The notes below the pieces were generated by a model. The model did no database searches. It worked only from the letters and a program-made list of their open reading frames with translations, and was not told where the DNA came from. Position numbers and translations under genes: made by a program. Shown piece after piece: positions 1,965-9,184 of a stretch of DNA of 11,196 nt. The stretch covers positions 1 through 11,196 of the forward strand of contig JAGUWR010000021.1 in NCBI GenBank assembly GCA_020062265.1. Direction: 5' to 3'. The DNA comes from Minisyncoccota bacterium. Its GTDB lineage: Bacteria; Patescibacteriota; Minisyncoccia; UBA6257; GWB1-50-10. Positions within the stretch are counted from its first letter, which is position 1. Every line of letters starts with the position of its first letter.

Positions 1965-4418
1965 ATGCCCAAAAGAAAATCTTTCATTTTTTGGTTTAAA
2001 GACATCGGTATTAAAGACGTTGGTCTTGTCGGCGGCAAGAATGCCGCTTTAGGCGAAATGTTTTCCGAGTTAACGCCGCTGGGTATAAAAATTCCGAACG
2101 GATTTGCCGTCACTGCCCGCGCCTACAACTATTTTTTTAAAAAAACCGACCTTGACAAGCAGATAAGGGAAATTCTCACCGGGCTTAATACCCACAACAT
2201 CAAAGATTTGCAGAAGCGCGGCAAGACGGTGAGACAGTTGATTTTGAAGGCGGGATTTCCGAATGATTTAAAAAAACAAATCACGACGGCTTATAAAAAG
2301 CTGGGGGGAATTTATTTTGAAAATCCCGACGTGGCGGTTCGTTCTTCGGCTACGACCGAGGACTTACCCGGCGCTTCTTTTGCCGGTCAGCAGGAGACCT
2401 ATCTCAATGTCGTCGGCGCTGGAAATGTTATTGAAGCGGTAAAAAAATGTATTGCTTCGCTTTTTACCGACCGGGCGATTTCTTACCGAGTTGACAAAGG
2501 ATTTTCTCATTTTGACGTTGCTCTTTCGGTCGGCGTTCAAAAAATGGTTCGTGCGGATTTAGCTTCAAGCGGCGTCGCTTTCACCATTGATACCGAAAGC
2601 GGATTTGATAAAGTCGTCATTATTGACGGTTCTTACGGACTTGGCGAGATGGTTGTCCAAGGCAAAATCGTGCCGGATGAGTTTACTGTTTTCAAACCCA
2701 CATTAGAAAAAGGACATAAAGCGATTATCGCTAAAGATTTAGGCAAGAAAAACATAAAACTCATTTATGGTCAGACAGGAACTCGCAAAGTAAATGTTTC
2801 CGAAAATTCTCAAAATCGCTTTTGTTTGAAAGATAGTGAAATTTTGGAGCTGGCCCGCTGGTGCGTTAAAATTGAAGAACATTTTTCAAAAAAACATCAT
2901 CGTTACCAGCCGATGGATATTGAGTGGGCCAAAGACGGAAAAACTAAAGAGTTATTCATTGTCCAAGCCCGTCCCGAGACCGTTCATTCTCTTGCTGATA
3001 AAACTCTTTATAAAGAATATGTTCTTAAGGGTAAAGGCGGATTACTCACTATTGGCATTGCCATCGGCACCAAAATCGCTAATGGCAAAGTTAGAGTAAT
3101 CAAAAATGTTAAAAATATCGGGGTCTTTAAAAAAGGAGAAGTTTTAGTTACCGAAATCACCGATCCCGACTGGGAACCAATTATGAAAATTGCTTCAGCG
3201 ATTGTCACGGATAAGGGCGGGCGCACTTCTCACGCGGCAATCGTGAGCCGGGAATTAGGGGTTTCCTGTATTGTTGGGACTGGCAATGCGACCAAGATTC
3301 TTAAAGACGGTCAAGCGGTTACAATTGATTGTTCATCCGGCGAAACAGGCAAAGTTTATGCCGGGAGAGTTCCTTATGACGTGGCTGAACATCGTCTTGA
3401 TGAGATTCCCAAAACCAAAACTAAAATTATGGTGAACGTCGGTTCCCCCGACGAAGCTTTCAAATATCACAATTTGCCGGTAAAAGGCGTTGGACTCGGC
3501 AGAGTTGAGTTTATCATTGCCGCCCACATTAGAATTCATCCCAATGCCCTGATTGATTATAAGAAATTAAAAGATAAAAACCTCATCAATCAGATTAAGA
3601 AACTCACGCTGGGCTATGTTAATAAAACTCAATTTTATATTGACGAACTCGCCGAGGGGATTGGAAAAATCGGGGCGGCTTTCTGGCCCGAAGAAGTGAT
3701 TATCCGTTTTTCCGATTTTAAAACCAATGAATACCGAAAGCTTATCGGCGGCGAGCTTTATGAACCAAATGAAGAAAATCCTATGCTTGGCTGGCGCGGC
3801 GCCTCGCGCTATTATGACCCGAAGTTCAAGATGGCCTTCGGTTTGGAATGTAAAGCCCTTAAAAAAGTCCGCGATGAGATGGGTTTGAAAAACATAGTGC
3901 CGATGATTCCGTTCTGCCGCACACCGGAAGAAGGCGAAAAAGTTCTGAAAATCATGGCACAATACGGTTTGCGTAGAAATCAGTGTAAATCAACAAATAA
4001 TCAGCATAAATCAGCGTTCAAAGTTTATGTTATGTGCGAAATTCCTTCCAATATTCTTTTAGCTGACGAGTTCCTGAAAATTTTTGACGGGATGTCTATC
4101 GGTTCCAATGATTTGACCCAACTGGCACTTGGTTTGGACCGGGATTCGGGCATTGTCACTCACATTGCCAATGAAAACAATCCGGCCGTGAAGAAAATAA
4201 TAAGCGAAATTATTAAAAAATGCCGCGCTCAAAAAAAATACATCGGCATCTGCGGCCAAGCGCCTTCCGATTATCCCGAATTCGCCGAATTTTTAGTCGA
4301 AGAGGGGATTGAGAGTATTTCCTTAAACCCCGATGCGGTTATAAAAACAATCTTAATGATTAAGAAGACGGAAAAGTTATTTGTCCGATCGCCGAATACG
4401 AATACGAAAGCGCTGTGA
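1965..4418 (+). CDS. ppsA: Phosphoenolpyruvate synthase (pyruvate, water dikinase)
   Basis: An 817-residue protein from ATG 1965, one base after the glycerate kinase stop. An upstream TTG at 1947 would overlap that gene and add nothing conserved. It catalyses pyruvate + ATP + H2O <-> PEP + AMP + phosphate. Domain order is normal: an N-terminal ATP-grasp domain (GLVGGKNAALGEM near 19-31, then VAVRSSATTEDLPGASFAGQQET near 125-147), the phosphohistidine domain with KGGRTSHAAIVSRELG and catalytic His423, and the C-terminal PEP/pyruvate barrel with GRVEF, MIPFCRT, GSNDLTQ and the catalytic loop GICGQAPSDYP (Cys763). Two oddities occur. Residues about 672-685 are an extra stretch encoded by two 21-bp repeats. 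The last dozen residues are encoded by simple aatacg repeats, and the TGA stop lies within a perfect palindrome. No pyruvate kinase is visible in the window, so this enzyme may also run in the pyruvate-forming direction (inference). Confidence 0.96.
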   Translation: MPKRKSFIFWFKDIGIKDVGLVGGKNAALGEMFSELTPLGIKIPNGFAVTARAYNYFFKKTDLDKQIREILTGLNTHNIKDLQKRGKTVRQLILKAGFPNDLKKQITTAYKKLGGIYFENPDVAVRSSATTEDLPGASFAGQQETYLNVVGAGNVIEAVKKCIASLFTDRAISYRVDKGFSHFDVALSVGVQKMVRADLASSGVAFTIDTESGFDKVVIIDGSYGLGEMVVQGKIVPDEFTVFKPTLEKGHKAIIAKDLGKKNIKLIYGQTGTRKVNVSENSQNRFCLKDSEILELARWCVKIEEHFSKKHHRYQPMDIEWAKDGKTKELFIVQARPETVHSLADKTLYKEYVLKGKGGLLTIGIAIGTKIANGKVRVIKNVKNIGVFKKGEVLVTEITDPDWEPIMKIASAIVTDKGGRTSHAAIVSRELGVSCIVGTGNATKILKDGQAVTIDCSSGETGKVYAGRVPYDVAEHRLDEIPKTKTKIMVNVGSPDEAFKYHNLPVKGVGLGRVEFIIAAHIRIHPNALIDYKKLKDKNLINQIKKLTLGYVNKTQFYIDELAEGIGKIGAAFWPEEVIIRFSDFKTNEYRKLIGGELYEPNEENPMLGWRGASRYYDPKFKMAFGLECKALKKVRDEMGLKNIVPMIPFCRTPEEGEKVLKIMAQYGLRRNQCKSTNNQHKSAFKVYVMCEIPSNILLADEFLKIFDGMSIGSNDLTQLALGLDRDSGIVTHIANENNPAVKKIISEIIKKCRAQKKYIGICGQAPSDYPEFAEFLVEEGIESISLNPDAVIKTILMIKKTEKLFVRSPNTNTKAL
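3978..4019. repeat. Two 21-bp direct repeats within ppsA
   Basis: Two adjacent 21-bp units start at 3978 and 3999. Both begin aatcag and share taaatca in the middle; 14 of 21 positions match. They encode NQCKSTN and NQHKSAF. They interrupt a conserved stretch of PEP synthase, between the helix ending QYGL and KVYVMCEIPSN, which is normally joined by only a few residues. The frame is kept. Confidence 0.65.
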
Positions 4419-4431
4419 CGCGTCACAGCGC
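4410..4431. promoter_or_regulatory. Perfect 22-bp palindrome, copy 1 of TGTGACGCGTCACA
   Basis: Perfect dyad centred between 4420 and 4421, reading gcgc-TGTGACGCGTCACA-gcgc with the shared core in capitals. It lies between convergent genes: the ppsA TGA (4416-4418) is inside it and the TrpR-like stop (4436-4438) is 5 bp away. Neither flank has a T-run, so it is not a standard intrinsic terminator. It could be an operator, a nuclease or recombinase site, or the end of a mobile unit. Two more copies lie within 1 kb. Confidence 0.85.
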
Positions 4432-4435
4432 CAGC

Positions 4436-4852
4436 TTAGGGCAGGTAAATTGTCCCGTACTTCGTCCGGACAGGTCTACCATGAGGTTTTCTTTTGGTTT
4501 GGGGTGAATCGCGACTATATACTCTTTTTTTTCTTTCTGTTTTGCTTCTCTCTCGATAACTCCTGTAGCTATTTTTATTTATAGCTTTCTTGATGCTGCT
4601 GATGGTTTGCGACGAGAGCCATAACTCTTCTCCGATCTGCCGATACTTTTTCCCCGCATTGATGCGGCTAATTACCGCGGCACGCATAACGAAATTATGG
4701 CGTTCATAAGGAGTAAACAAAAGCCCAAAAAAATCTCTGGATTTTAAAATTTTACGCCAGCAAGTATTTTCCCATTCCTTGCGCGAAGGGTAGCAGTTAA
4801 CCGGCGGCAGGGCGAACAGAAATTCTTTTTTACCCTTTACCTTTTTCCTCAT
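4436..4852 (-). CDS. TrpR/YerC-YecD-like DNA-binding protein
   Basis: A 138-residue basic protein, start ATG 4852, stop 4438-4436. Residues 48-91 (PYERHNFVMRAAVISRINAG followed by KKYRQIGEELWLSSQTISSIKKAI) form the TrpR-superfamily fold. The helix-turn-helix is about residues 67-90, with YRQIGEEL as the first helix and SSQTISSIKKAI as the recognition helix. The N-terminal part (PSRKEWENTCWRKILKS) is helical. The tail from about 92 is rich in Lys, Arg and Ser and probably contacts DNA or RNA. There is no reason to think it binds tryptophan. Its promoter carries one copy of the TGACGCGTCA palindrome and its 3' end abuts another, so it probably binds that site and represses itself (inference). 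It is flanked on both sides by unrelated metabolic operons on the other strand, consistent with a self-contained inserted module. Confidence 0.85.
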   Translation of the reverse strand: MRKKVKGKKEFLFALPPVNCYPSRKEWENTCWRKILKSRDFFGLLFTPYERHNFVMRAAVISRINAGKKYRQIGEELWLSSQTISSIKKAINKNSYRSYRERSKTERKKRVYSRDSPQTKRKPHGRPVRTKYGTIYLP

Positions 4853-4863
4853 GAAATAAGTGT

Positions 4864-4890
4864 ATCATATTGCTATGACGCGTCACAGCA
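4864..4890 (-). promoter_or_regulatory. TrpR-like gene promoter with overlapping palindromic operator (copy 2)
   Basis: On the minus strand a -10 TATGAT (4869-4864) lies 11 nt before ATG 4852, giving a very short or absent leader. One base upstream is a 20-bp dyad (4871-4890) with a single mismatched pair (4875/4886), containing TGACGCGTCA. It fills the -10/-35 spacer and reaches the expected -35 position, where no good hexamer is seen. A protein bound here would block polymerase. It also lies in the divergent gap before the zinc-ribbon relic, so it could affect both. Confidence 0.6.
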
Positions 4891-4948
4891 CGAGAATTAC
4901 TTCCTCTAACCTTCTTTCCTTTTAATTTTCTCTCTTTTTAGTCCGGTG

Positions 4949-4957
4949 TGGTATAAT
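4949..4957 (+). promoter_or_regulatory. Extended -10 promoter of the zinc-ribbon relic
   Basis: TGgTATAAT is a perfect extended -10 element. Its last base is 8 nt from ATG 4966, so transcription would begin at or just before the start codon (leaderless). No -35 hexamer is apparent. Confidence 0.6.
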
Positions 4958-4965
4958 TTTAGTTA

Positions 4966-5422
4966 ATGAATTCTGAAACCCATTCAATGAATTCAGGACA
5001 AGCCAAACCCTGTCAAAATTGTCCCGATTTTGTACGAGCAAAGCGAATCTACAAATACCAACGAAGTCATCCAATGCCAACATAACCAGCAGTGTAATGA
5101 GCAGTGTACTCAAGTTTTCAAGATTACCCTTCAAGAACTTCAATTCTACAGACGAATGAACCTGCCCTTGTCCTGTCTCTGTCCTAACTGCTGTCACTAT
5201 CAGCGCCTCAAATAAAGAAACACTCTTAAATTGTGGTATAGGCAGTGTATGTGCGCCGGCATCCAATCTTACGGGGCTAAGCCTCATAAGATTGGATATA
5301 AAAATACGGCGGTTCATTTTCACGGCAACCAGTCCTGCTCCAATGAATTTGAAACTTCTTATGTTCCTGACCGCAAAGAGATCGTGTATTGCGAACAATG
5401 TTACAACGCCGAGGTGGTTTAA
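4966..5422 (+). pseudogene. Decayed cysteine-rich zinc-ribbon protein gene
   Basis: The promoter-proximal ATG 4966 opens a 39-codon frame containing CQNC and ends at TAA 5083. The rest of the protein is in the +1 frame, open from 4991. It reads CQHNQQCNEQC, FYRRMNLPLSCLCPNC, HYQRLK, then TAA at 5213-5215, and continues without a break as RNTLKLWYRQCMC to FETSYVPDRKEIVYCEQCYNAEVV and TAA 5420-5422. From memory, CPR proteins of this type have an unbroken Q at the internal stop (LKQRNPLKLWHRQCMC), so a single CAA-to-TAA change would explain it. They also have a much longer N-terminal part, so an internal deletion near 5030-5060 may have joined frames. A 37-bp stem-loop at 5261-5297 has also entered it. 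The paired CxxC sites suggest zinc binding; the function is unknown. Two short live ORFs, or an assembly error at the stop, remain possible. Confidence 0.6.
5261..5297. repeat. 37-bp stem-loop element inside the zinc-ribbon relic
   Basis: Arms atccaatctta (5261-5271) and taagattggat (5287-5297) are perfect 11-bp complements. An inner stem ggggc/gcctc (5273-5277 with 5281-5285) closes a three-base loop. Read in frame it adds IQSYGAKPHKIGY between RQCMC and the YKNT segment, which I remember as close together in intact relatives. It therefore looks like a separate small insertion. Confidence 0.65.
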
Positions 5423-5425
5423 ATA

Positions 5426-5453
5426 ATAGCGCTGTGACGCGTCACAGCGCTAT
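5426..5453. promoter_or_regulatory. Perfect 28-bp palindrome, copy 3 of TGTGACGCGTCACA
   Basis: Perfect dyad centred between 5439 and 5440: atagcgc followed by the shared core TGTGACGCGTCACA and gcgctat. It begins 3 bp after the stop of the zinc-ribbon relic and about 100 bp before the dehydrogenase gene. It is the longest of the three copies. No T-run follows, so a terminator role is unlikely. With copy 1 it brackets about 1.04 kb. Confidence 0.85.
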
Positions 5454-6559: not shown

Positions 6560-7785
6560 GCCGCATTGCTTTTCTTAACGCCCGAACCATAGCCGATTCG
6601 CGCGGCGACTTGACCATTGAGGTGATTGTTGAGTTGGAAAGTGGGGCGCGGGCAATTGCTTCAGTGCCCCAAGGTAAAAGCCGCGGCCGCGCCGAGGCTT
6701 TCTTATTAGAAACGGCAAAAGCGGTTGAAAACGTAAATCAATTGATCGCTTCAGCCATTCAGGGTAAAGATTTTAAAAATCAGCAGGCGCTTGATAAGTT
6801 TTTAATTGCTTTAGACGGCACGTCGAATAAGTCGAAGCTTGGGGCGAACGCTTGTCTCGGCGTTTCTCTTGCTTTTGCCAGGGCTTCAGCGATAAGCCGC
6901 GGGATTCCCCTCTGGCAGTACATCCGGGGGCTAGTTACCGATAAGTCCAATATGACCAATGGGTCGGATAGGACTGATAGAACTTATAAGACGCCGCGGT
7001 TACTGGTTAATATTATCGGCGGCGGGCTTCATGCTAAAAATAATCTTGATTTTCAAGAATATTTAATCATTCCGAAAACATCGAACGTAAAAGAAGCGTT
7101 CGAGACGGCAGAAGTGATTTACGAAAATGTTAATAATCATCTTAAAAGCAAATTCGGTAGTGTTTTGTTTGCCGACGAAGGAAATTTTGCTCCCAATCTT
7201 GCCGACAATGAGGAACCGTTTTTAATTATTAAAGAAGCGGCCCGGGCGGCAAATTTGAGCGATAAAATTGATTTTGGCCTGGATGCGGCGGCCAGCAACG
7301 TCAGAATGAAGTCAAACGAACTTTTTAATTGGTATTACGATATGAAAAAGAAATACAATCTGCTTTACCTTGAGGATCCGTTTAGCGAAGAAGATTTTGA
7401 AAACTTTTCAGAGCTTTTGGATAAAATTGGCGACAATACTATTATTGCCGGCGATGATTTAACCGTTACCAATCTTCAAAGAATGGAACGCGCTCGCGAG
7501 CAAAAAAGCATAAACGGCGTTATTATTAAACCGAACCAAATCGGCACTTTAACCGAAACCATTGAAGCAGTTAAAAAAGCCAAAGAATTGGGCTGGGCAG
7601 TAATAGTTTCTCACCGCAGCGGCGAGACAAACGATTCTTTCATCGCTGATTTGGCTTACGGCGTCGGCGCTGATGGCTTGAAGGCCGGCGCGCCTTTGGC
7701 TCCGGGGCGATCGGTTAAGTACAAAAGATTGATTAATTTGGTTTCAGGACCGAAAAATGGATTTACTGAAAACAATGAGCAGTAA
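6556..7785 (+). CDS. eno: Enolase (phosphopyruvate hydratase), divergent
   Basis: A 409-residue protein, slightly shorter than usual (about 415-430), converting 2-phosphoglycerate to PEP. Active-site positions are kept: His159 (GGGLHAKNN), Glu168 (FQEYLI), Glu208 (ADEGNFAP), metal ligands Asp243 (GLDAAAS), Glu273 (YLEDP) and Asp300 (AGDDLTVTN), Lys325 (IKPNQIGTLTET), SHRS at 352-355 and Lys376 (LKAGAP). The N-terminal signatures have drifted: the usual REILDSRGNPT is RTIADSRGDLT at 10-20, and the mobile loop PSGASTG is PQGKSRG at 38-44, keeping only the metal-binding serine. GAPCRSER is GAPLAPGR. Residues 129-146 are an insertion encoded by six 9-bp repeats just before the VNIIGGG strand. Because all catalytic residues remain, it is probably an active enolase from a divergent lineage. 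The next gene starts 29 nt before its stop. Confidence 0.93.
   Translation: MSRIAFLNARTIADSRGDLTIEVIVELESGARAIASVPQGKSRGRAEAFLLETAKAVENVNQLIASAIQGKDFKNQQALDKFLIALDGTSNKSKLGANACLGVSLAFARASAISRGIPLWQYIRGLVTDKSNMTNGSDRTDRTYKTPRLLVNIIGGGLHAKNNLDFQEYLIIPKTSNVKEAFETAEVIYENVNNHLKSKFGSVLFADEGNFAPNLADNEEPFLIIKEAARAANLSDKIDFGLDAAASNVRMKSNELFNWYYDMKKKYNLLYLEDPFSEEDFENFSELLDKIGDNTIIAGDDLTVTNLQRMERAREQKSINGVIIKPNQIGTLTETIEAVKKAKELGWAVIVSHRSGETNDSFIADLAYGVGADGLKAGAPLAPGRSVKYKRLINLVSGPKNGFTENNEQ
6940..6993. repeat. Six tandem 9-bp repeats within enolase
   Basis: The units are gataagtcc, aatatgacc, aatgggtcg, gataggact, gatagaact and tataagacg. Each is exactly three codons, giving DKS, NMT, NGS, DRT, DRT, YKT: a [D/N/Y]-[K/R/M/G]-[S/T] triplet. 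The period is exact and in frame, at residues 129-146. The tract sits in the loop between YIRG and PRLLVNIIGGG, where enolases normally have a short linker. Confidence 0.8.
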
Positions 7786-9184
7786 GGAAGAATTTCCAGC
7801 ATTGGAAAAGCGCGAACTCCCTTTGCCGCCTTCTTGGCGGAAGGCGCTTGGAGTAGGAATAGTGGTAATGGGGTTGGCTATCGGCACGGGCGAGCTGATT
7901 TTATGGCCGCATCTTATTGTCAAACACGGATTTGTTCTTCTTTGGCTCGCTTTTTTGGGCATTACCGTCCAGTATTTCATTAATCAAGAAGTGGCTCGCT
8001 ACACAATCGCTACTGGTGAAAGTTTTTTCACCGCTTCAGCCCGAATTCTTAAATGGTCGGCAATTTTTTGGCTGGTAACTGCTCCTATTTTGTATATTTG
8101 GCCCGGCTGGGCAAGCGCTATAGGCACCATCCTCAAAGAACTTTTCGGTTCTGGCGGGTATATCTTCTGGGCGATGCTGCCCTTAGGGTTGGTATTAATT
8201 CTCACTTACAGCGGCAGAGTAGCTTATGCGGTTCTTGAATATTCTCTTAAAATAATCGTCCCGGCATTCTTTTTGATGATTCTTGTCATTAGTTTTTTCA
8301 ATATTGATTTAGAAATTCTAAAAGAAGCGCTGACCGGGCTTTTAAGTTTCGGAGTAATACCTTCAGGCATTGACATCAACGTGCTTCTAGGAGCGGTGGT
8401 TTTTGCCGGCGCCGGGGGGATGCTCAATCTTTGTGTTTCACTTTGGTACCGCGATAAGCAAACAGGAATGGCGTCTTATATAGGCAGAATCACTAATCCT
8501 ATTACTGGTAAAACCGAAGCAATCCCGGCTACCGGTTATATTTTTGAACCGACGCCGATAAATCTCCAAAAATGGCGCGGTTGGCTCCGCTACGTCCGGA
8601 TTGACCAGGGTATTATTTTTTGGTTTCTCGGTTTTTTAACGCTTTTTTTGTTAAGCGTTAACGCTTACGCTGTCCTTACCCCTCGGGGTTTGGTGCCGGA
8701 AGATCTGCAAGTGGCAGTGGTTCAGGCGCATATTTTTGGCGAACAATGGGGCGCTATCGGTTTTAAACTATTCTTGGTGATGGCATTCTTGATGCTTTTC
8801 TCGGTAATGTGGACGGTAATTGACGCCTTAACAAGAATTATGAGTGATATTCTCTATACTAATTCCCGAAGCGGTCCTCTGCGGCGGTATTTTTCTTGGT
8901 TGATTAATGTTCCTCTTAATGTTCTTTACTATGTTATTATTACAATAGTAGTGGTTATCGGAGCATTTTTAATCCCTTTTCGCCAGCCCCTAACCCTGCT
9001 TGTTATTTCGGCCGTATTGGGAGGGTTAACAATGGCGCTTTATACTCCTCTTCTTATTTATATTAACAATACCAGACTTTCTAAACCGCTCCGTCCGGGT
9101 TGGCTGACCAATGCCGCAATGGTTCTAATTTCATTTTTCTTCATCTATTTTTCTGTGAAAATTTTTATTCATCATTTTTTGTAA
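7757..9184 (+). CDS. Nramp-like (LeuT-fold) membrane transporter
   Basis: A 475-residue integral membrane protein with about 11-12 hydrophobic helices. Start ATG 7757 is chosen because AGGA at 7746-7749 lies 7 nt upstream, one of the few good Shine-Dalgarno sites here; ATG 7775 lacks one. Residues 1-28 are hydrophilic. TM1 (about 30-55) contains GTGEL, a helix break in the position of the DPGN motif of SLC11/Nramp transporters. The helix around 208-230 (VFAGAGGMLNLCVSLWYRDK) occupies the TM6 position but lacks the MPHN metal-binding motif. A loop at 231-283 is long and polar. The pattern fits Nramp-related proteins that lack the canonical divalent-metal site, so the substrate cannot be named. 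It overlaps enolase by 29 nt and precedes gpsA by 1 nt, hence operonic. Confidence 0.7.
   Translation: MDLLKTMSSKEEFPALEKRELPLPPSWRKALGVGIVVMGLAIGTGELILWPHLIVKHGFVLLWLAFLGITVQYFINQEVARYTIATGESFFTASARILKWSAIFWLVTAPILYIWPGWASAIGTILKELFGSGGYIFWAMLPLGLVLILTYSGRVAYAVLEYSLKIIVPAFFLMILVISFFNIDLEILKEALTGLLSFGVIPSGIDINVLLGAVVFAGAGGMLNLCVSLWYRDKQTGMASYIGRITNPITGKTEAIPATGYIFEPTPINLQKWRGWLRYVRIDQGIIFWFLGFLTLFLLSVNAYAVLTPRGLVPEDLQVAVVQAHIFGEQWGAIGFKLFLVMAFLMLFSVMWTVIDALTRIMSDILYTNSRSGPLRRYFSWLINVPLNVLYYVIITIVVVIGAFLIPFRQPLTLLVISAVLGGLTMALYTPLLIYINNTRLSKPLRPGWLTNAAMVLISFFFIYFSVKIFIHHFL

Follow-up and report, generated by a model that had tools for sequence, protein, structure and literature searches.

TrpR-like genes flanked by shared palindromes in Patescibacteria probably behave like a REP/RAYT pair

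A TrpR-like gene between two palindromes

The window analysed here is an 11,196-nucleotide stretch of a Minisyncoccota (Patescibacteria) genome (contig JAGUWR010000021.1). In it, a small gene encoding a 138-aa TrpR-like protein (4436–4852, minus strand) lies between two copies of a long palindrome, and a third copy lies farther on. Why would such a gene be bracketed in this way? The initial annotation of this DNA proposed either a regulator with its own operators or a small mobile unit, extending over 1 kb. Both proposals agree with the shared-core flanks, the upstream promoter, the co-variation of protein and site and the empty sites in relatives described below, whereas the 1-kb extent does not hold. 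We conclude, with a probability of roughly 0.6, that the window contains one copy of a Patescibacteria family of palindrome-associated TrpR-like genes, which behaves like the pair formed by repetitive extragenic palindromic (REP) sequences and the REP-associated tyrosine transposase (RAYT). The genome comparisons that carry this reading concern the pairing of the palindromes and the sharing of their cores, their co-variation with the protein, promoter placement, dispersal, and presence or absence between relatives.

The pattern TGTGACGCGTCACA, with up to three mismatches allowed, matched at three places in the window (starts 4414, 4874 and 5433), as against a mean of 0.19 matches in the shuffled window, and three matches were never reached in 200 shuffles. 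This bears out the earlier observation of three dyads within 1.05 kb and no others in the window. Palindrome 1 (GCGCTGTGACGCGTCACAGCGC, 4410–4431) is a 22-bp perfect dyad that lies just behind the stop of the TrpR-like gene, at the downstream end of the gene unit, and overlaps the ppsA stop codon. Palindrome 2 (4871–4890), a 20-bp dyad with one mismatched pair, is located at the promoter of the gene and is a predicted operator, with a core half over the −35 region; the putative −10 box TATGAT (4864–4869, minus strand), whose position was read from the sequence, adjoins it. Palindrome 3 (5426–5453) is a 28-bp perfect dyad behind a Cys-rich relic. Because dispersed copies occur elsewhere in the source genome, it is read as an extra dispersed copy behind an unrelated relic and outside the unit. 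The unit in the family is palindrome–gene–palindrome, which here spans 4410–4890 (about 480 bp) and replaces the 1-kb limits of the annotated module. Inspection of the window sequence by eye revealed no obvious target-site duplication at the outer palindromes, as had been noted before.

The gene product matched the Pfam family Trp_repressor (PF01371) with an E value of 1.1e-6 and 29 bits against a cut-off of 27, in agreement with its initial naming as TrpR/YerC-like, and was below the curated cut-off of the YerC/YecD model TIGR02531 (17.6 versus 42.2 bits). An AlphaFold2 model of the protein (mean predicted local distance difference test score 80.5, predicted template modelling score 0.51) revealed a helix-turn-helix at residues 70–92, with residue 81 first in the recognition helix. 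A Foldseek search using this model ranked TrpR structures at the top, with a weak E value (0.18) and none at 0.001 or better. The family also has extra conserved N- and C-terminal parts (RKEWE... and ...RTKYG). A TrpR-fold protein of this type, presumably a dimer, would bind the long palindromes at both ends of the gene.

Paired palindromes across the gene family

A family profile was built from 20 relatives and applied at a genome threshold of E 1e-6. The TrpR-like gene was found in 76 of the 244 genomes of the order, with up to nine copies in one genome, and the gene or a distant relative in 65 of 379 genomes sampled across the phylum. The named relatives come from Jorgensen-, Lipton-, Wolfe-, Colwell- and Brennerbacteria, with single metagenome-assembled genomes filed as Spirochaetia and Deltaproteobacteria; we therefore take the family to be a Patescibacteria group.

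We collected 91 distinct copies and analysed the 82 that had at least 250 nt on both sides, leaving out the other nine (less than 250 nt on a side). A palindrome was present on both sides in 65 of the 82 copies, and the two shared their core (at least 12 of 14 positions) in 61. None of 243 control open reading frames (ORFs) from the same loci had shared-core flanks, and four had unrelated palindromes on both sides. When the downstream sides were re-dealt among the copies, shared-core pairs numbered 7.5 on average and 16 at most in 1000 trials. Later tests used 63 paired copies, two with shorter flanks having been added, and their downstream sites comprised 45 different core sequences. The dyad centres are 427–778 bp apart in the family. 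Among the phylum-wide matches, 28 new loci of distant relatives were inspected; seven had palindromes on both sides, and the core was shared in all seven.

Co-variation of protein and palindrome

Protein distances and core distances were correlated across the family (Mantel r 0.47 for downstream and 0.48 for upstream sites, p 0.0005). The co-variation is tight at both ends, which points to an action of the protein on both palindromes. When protein columns were scanned against half-site positions (43 copies), residue 81 with base −8 ranked first, and 9 of the top 20 column pairs fell inside the helix-turn-helix, which has 24 of the 100 columns. The rule that Pro or Ser at residue 81 goes with C, Leu with T and Arg with G fitted 35 of the 37 copies with these residues among 42 higher-scoring ones, and 45 of 49 among all 62. 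Locus L126 was excluded from this test and from the within-genome core test described below because of overlapping palindromes with an unclear register. In an alignment with Escherichia coli TrpR, residue 81 falls on the Ile of GIAT (residue 79), a specificity position of that protein. Tree-paired paralogues within one genome switch residue and base together, with good support for L104/L122 (genome G011) and L106/L124 (G020) and with a less well supported pairing for L015/L112 (G022).

Selection for differing sites within a genome was considered and rejected: 52 of 54 within-genome pairs differ, yet this received no support at matched identity, with identical cores in 2 of 21 within-genome pairs and 9 of 301 other pairs at 45–80% protein identity. 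In this test the genome of each locus was assigned by hand, and any locus lacking a handle was treated as belonging to another genome.

Predicted promoter at the upstream palindrome

An extended −10 element directed from the upstream palindrome towards the gene was found in 42 of the 63 copies (8 and 5 in control windows), and its spacing in those copies puts a core half-site near −35. The downstream palindrome had an extended −10 element in 1 of 63 copies inward and 3 of 63 outward, similar to the background. Because the upstream palindrome overlaps the −35 region of the gene's own promoter, the TrpR-like protein likely represses its own gene through this site, as far as promoter sequences can tell. 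The downstream palindrome must serve something other than autorepression.

A rival explanation is that the palindromes are transcription terminators or mRNA-stabilising hairpins. Palindromes 1 and 3 could indeed form strong RNA hairpins (−15.6 and −19.6 kcal/mol), and the private arms of palindromes described below stay self-complementary. However, T-runs (at least 5 T in 8) followed the downstream palindromes in only 5 and 6 of 63 copies on the two strands, on which grounds intrinsic terminators were rejected; hairpins need neither a shared core nor co-variation with a protein, and a sample of genome G011 (below) revealed no bias of solo sites to the 3' ends of genes. We therefore give the hairpin explanation almost no credence.

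Another explanation is an ordinary repressor of the TrpR/HisR type, with an operator at its own promoter, a small regulon and horizontal transfer, in which the downstream site helps by looping or as a roadblock. The nature of the protein and the placement of the upstream site at the promoter agree with this. According to the available excerpt of one report, 20-bp palindromes are the binding sites of HisR/TrpR proteins, and hisR itself frequently has a site at its promoter (PMC9413887). However, looping between the two sites was rejected, since the 63 separations revealed no helical phasing at periods of 10–11 bp. Operator function of the solo sites was rejected as well: a −10 element was found in 3 of 60 directions (6 in the control window), and several of these sites lie between convergent genes. 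The mini-element and mixed-core clusters described in the next section are also unexpected for a regulon. An ordinary repressor is thus unlikely.

Dispersed palindromes

The whole-genome palindrome search that the annotation had proposed was run on the source assembly (331 kb, 68% complete). The pattern TGACGCGTCA occurs at seven places, three in the window and four elsewhere, so the palindrome is not confined to the annotated segment; a backward control pattern was not found. Two of the four outside sites are between convergent genes and two between codirectional genes. A one-base variant of TGACGCGTCA lies between convergent genes on contig C9.

At the level of the family, TATGACGCGTCATA was present in 12 of 42 genomes, 10 of them with the gene. 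In the order, TATGCTATAGCATA was found in 30 of 244 genomes, 25 with the gene (Fisher 3.6e-10), while its backward control occurred in 2; TATGACATGTCATA was found in 17, 14 with the gene (Fisher 9.4e-6), and its backward control in none. These counts include sites flanking the genes, and a genome holds up to 21 sites of one tested core. The annotation had also raised the contrary case of palindromes scattered without link to TrpR-like genes; the sites instead follow the gene-bearing genomes. One to seven TATGCTATAGCATA sites without a gene match were observed in G170, G082, G048, G064 and G193; the repeats may be orphans there, or the gene may have been missed.

In 200 kb of G011 we found 26 perfect palindromes of at least 18 bp, and none after shuffling. 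Sixteen of the 26 carry ACGCGT or CTATAG, which are the cores of the genome's own TrpR-like genes. In 280 kb of G027 there were 13 perfect palindromes, 2 with a family core, and two gene-free genomes (124 kb) had 2, both without a family core. The 16 family sites of the G011 sample are all outside ORFs, which cover 86% of it. A bias of solo sites to the 3' ends of genes was rejected in the same sample (5 of 16 within 60 bp, versus 26% at random). The same palindrome is dispersed over the genome in mostly extragenic copies, and one genome has a two-palindrome mini-element in addition: a unit of 67 bp, made up of two palindromes and a spacer, occurs twice in G022 (L181, 57–123, and L202, 1976–2042), the copies being 94% identical with one core differing.

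Palindromes of different cores are also found next to each other, at distances of up to about 50 bp, in G000, G022, G024 and G013. ACGCGT or a variant is found beside CTATAG in G000, G022 (C29) and G024 (C16 and C40), and ACGCGT beside ACATGT in G013. In G000, two cores overlap or are adjacent at C28 6591–6697, C26 5872–5915 and C9 5549–5586 (L133, L132 and L131). Such two-core mosaics are reminiscent of bacterial interspersed mosaic elements (BIMEs). A 114-bp direct repeat at L015 1237–1481 (G022, C1) holds a palindrome and the apparent 3' end of another TrpR-like gene.

Noc, MatP and ParB are single-copy, conserved proteins that use dispersed palindromic sites outside promoters through a helix-turn-helix, and the TrpR-like protein resembles them in this. 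The dispersed palindromes could accordingly belong to a chromosomal-site system, in which a nucleoid or segregation factor coats or bridges them and also represses itself. Dispersed promoterless sites with a cognate helix-turn-helix protein, many of them perfect palindromes, agree with this explanation. So does the low ratio of nonsynonymous to synonymous substitution (dN/dS), which was 0.03–0.18 in the four measurable of six pairs; these values are rough (dS 0.9–3.2), the other two pairs were saturated, and the TrpR-like genes appear to be under purifying selection. However, a housekeeping factor would not be expected to have the patchy distribution of the gene, nor up to nine copies per genome with differing cores, as in the 45 cores among 63 downstream sites. 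Unlike Noc, MatP and ParB, the TrpR-like genes are patchy, multi-copy and fast-changing, and we regard a chromosomal-site system as rather unlikely.

Gain and loss of the gene unit

In the window, the unit is flanked by a glycerate-kinase-like gene and ppsA on one side and a 2-hydroxyacid dehydrogenase gene on the other. We carried out the proposed syntenic comparison, which did reveal ppsA and the dehydrogenase as neighbours without the TrpR-like module in relatives. The ppsA gene is present in 34 of the 42 family genomes, and 29 ppsA loci of relatives were compared. The dehydrogenase gene is the next recognised gene after ppsA in 12 of them; the other 17 have different neighbours or reach the end of the sequence. 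In 11 of the 12 loci the gap is 29–539 nt (with one overlap) and contains no palindrome of this kind, and the twelfth locus (L160) has a gap of 869 nt, in which one unrelated 18-bp palindrome lies. The corresponding gap in the window is 1137 nt.

Other copies gave a similar picture in an empty-site table of 24 rows, from which the L026–L050 row was excluded because it compared one place with itself. Copy L122 of G011 is absent from the matching place in the congeneric genome G027, with 33 nt between the two neighbours; the right-hand one is Cys-rich and belongs to a multi-copy family (40% identity), and the further gene order agrees. Copy L106 has empty counterparts in G011, G027 and others, and L098 and L136 have empty counterparts too. 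This suggests gain or loss of the gene unit at various places in the chromosome. The unit and the palindromes may spread as selfish DNA, moved perhaps by an enzyme acting in trans or by replication or recombination at the palindromes. A RAYT/Y1 transposase acting in trans was not found in the gene-bearing genomes G000 (68% complete), G022 and G003; Y1_Tnp is present in 21 of the 42 family genomes. No relative of the gene was found among viral-contig candidates or in plasmids, PADLOC gave no match, and PHROGs gave weak matches only (best E 0.013).

Several observations weigh against the REP/RAYT-like reading. Of the 82 copies, 21 lack a shared-core pair, and 21 of the 28 distant relatives have no pair (six with a palindrome on one side, 15 with none). 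The upstream palindrome also has a −10-like element directed outward in 11 of 63 copies (5 and 5 in controls). The copies on which the residue-81 rule was tested are those from which it had been derived, and with three well-supported independent pairs, or nine on the whole tree, the sign test is not significant. A 556-aa ORF of G011 (C11) contains two palindromes, which differ in core (L207, 2025 and 2780). The empty sites could also be losses, the ends of the unit are not mapped to the base, and the relatives are too diverged for base-level empty sites. All four genomes of genus g12 carry a copy at the glycerate-kinase place, and some copies are therefore inherited in place. Within single genomes no near-identical copies came to light (identity reached 75% at most among the 63 paired copies), so that recent transposition is not demonstrated, while assembly could hide such copies. 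No nuclease or transposase domain, including Y1_Tnp, was detected in the TrpR-like protein by Pfam. In NCBIfam, 4 of 20 family members weakly matched an IS630 transposase model (best 1.6e-4) and 2 an IS21 model; these matches presumably arise through the helix-turn-helix. Palindromes also occur as orphans in genomes without a gene match (5 of the 30 genomes with TATGCTATAGCATA and 3 of the 17 with TATGACATGTCATA).

These orphans would also be expected if the palindromes themselves were the mobile part, with an unseen transposase or replication slippage spreading them, and the TrpR-like gene were a passenger using one of them as an operator. The 67-bp mini-element and the lack of a detected catalytic domain are consistent with this explanation, as are the private arms found in 31 of 63 loci, where at least one of the two palindromes has three or more extra paired bases per arm that are absent from the other. 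Such arms could come from template switching at the replication fork. However, the tight co-variation of protein and palindrome at both ends points to a protein that acts on both, and we regard this explanation as very unlikely.

Comparison with known systems

The REP/RAYT-like reading is based on the arrangement of gene and repeats. The available excerpts of two papers describe RAYT genes as flanked by palindromes that are also dispersed extragenically, with gene and palindrome co-evolving, copies distinctive within one genome, and doublets and clusters (PMC2817692, PMC3116915). As far as these excerpts go, the TrpR-like system resembles REP/RAYT and the REP doublets forming hairpins (REPINs) in its flanking palindromes, extragenic dispersal, co-variation, distinctive copies, doublet element and clusters. 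Unlike RAYT, the protein is TrpR-like and lacks the Y1 (HUH, catalytic Tyr) domain. The palindromes are often perfect, whereas REP sequences are imperfect with a GT(A/G)G head, and the upstream one doubles as a predicted promoter operator. No genome has more than 21 sites of a tested core, whereas the excerpt on Stenotrophomonas gives 37–427 perfect REP copies (PMC2817692). What places the system outside REP/RAYT is the protein: the organisation matches, with the Y1 transposase replaced by a TrpR-like protein.

With the TrpR/HisR regulators (YerC/YecD; PF01371, TIGR02531) the system shares the Pfam family, a predicted helix-turn-helix, a palindromic operator of the 20-bp type and a site at its own promoter, as far as the excerpt cited above describes them. 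It differs from them in the N- and C-terminal extras, the second palindrome behind the gene, the dispersed promoterless sites and the many paralogues with different sites. Membership of TrpR/HisR holds for the family and the promoter site, and leaves the second palindrome and the dispersed promoterless sites unexplained.

Tentatively, and as a possibility rather than an expectation, we suggest that these units represent a new class of selfish DNA. Its sole protein would be a TrpR-fold repressor that recognises the palindromes at both ends, represses itself through one of them and seeds solo and paired palindromes. Its specificity would shift by a recognition-helix residue together with all half-sites, and movement would be left to a host or unseen enzyme acting on the protein-bound palindromes. 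In REP/RAYT systems it is a puzzle why a gene is bracketed by the repeats that it presumably moves and why the two co-evolve. The same arrangement around a second protein, unrelated to the first, would show that what recurs is the arrangement and not the Y1 enzyme, and it would offer, for testing this, a small protein with dozens of natural protein–site pairs and a readable recognition rule. In the literature searched (titles and abstract openings, with few subscription papers or preprints), no account was found, for these bacteria, of TrpR-like genes flanked by palindromes, and the locus points to a repeat class of the ultra-small, uncultured Patescibacteria that is new to that literature.

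The Cys-rich relic and other features

The Cys-rich stretch between palindromes 2 and 3 (4975–5425, plus strand, limits approximate) is the decayed remnant of a gene for a family of Cys-rich proteins of about 600 aa in these genomes. Four copies of this family are present in 280 kb of G027 (L232–L245, contig C5), and no Pfam match was found in 545 residues scanned from one member. The annotation had placed a cysteine-rich gene inside the module; its decay is confirmed, and its membership of the unit is not. A Cys-rich gene lies within 1.5 kb of 8 of the 91 TrpR-like copies, as against 7 of 166 background windows of 3.4 kb that contain one, and it was rejected as cargo, though one is near 7 of the 47 closest TrpR-like copies and a mild association stays possible. 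The relic is most likely a bystander and not part of the unit. Elsewhere in the window, a 475-aa ORF (7757–9184), without a Pfam match at E 0.1, encodes a membrane protein as judged from its sequence.

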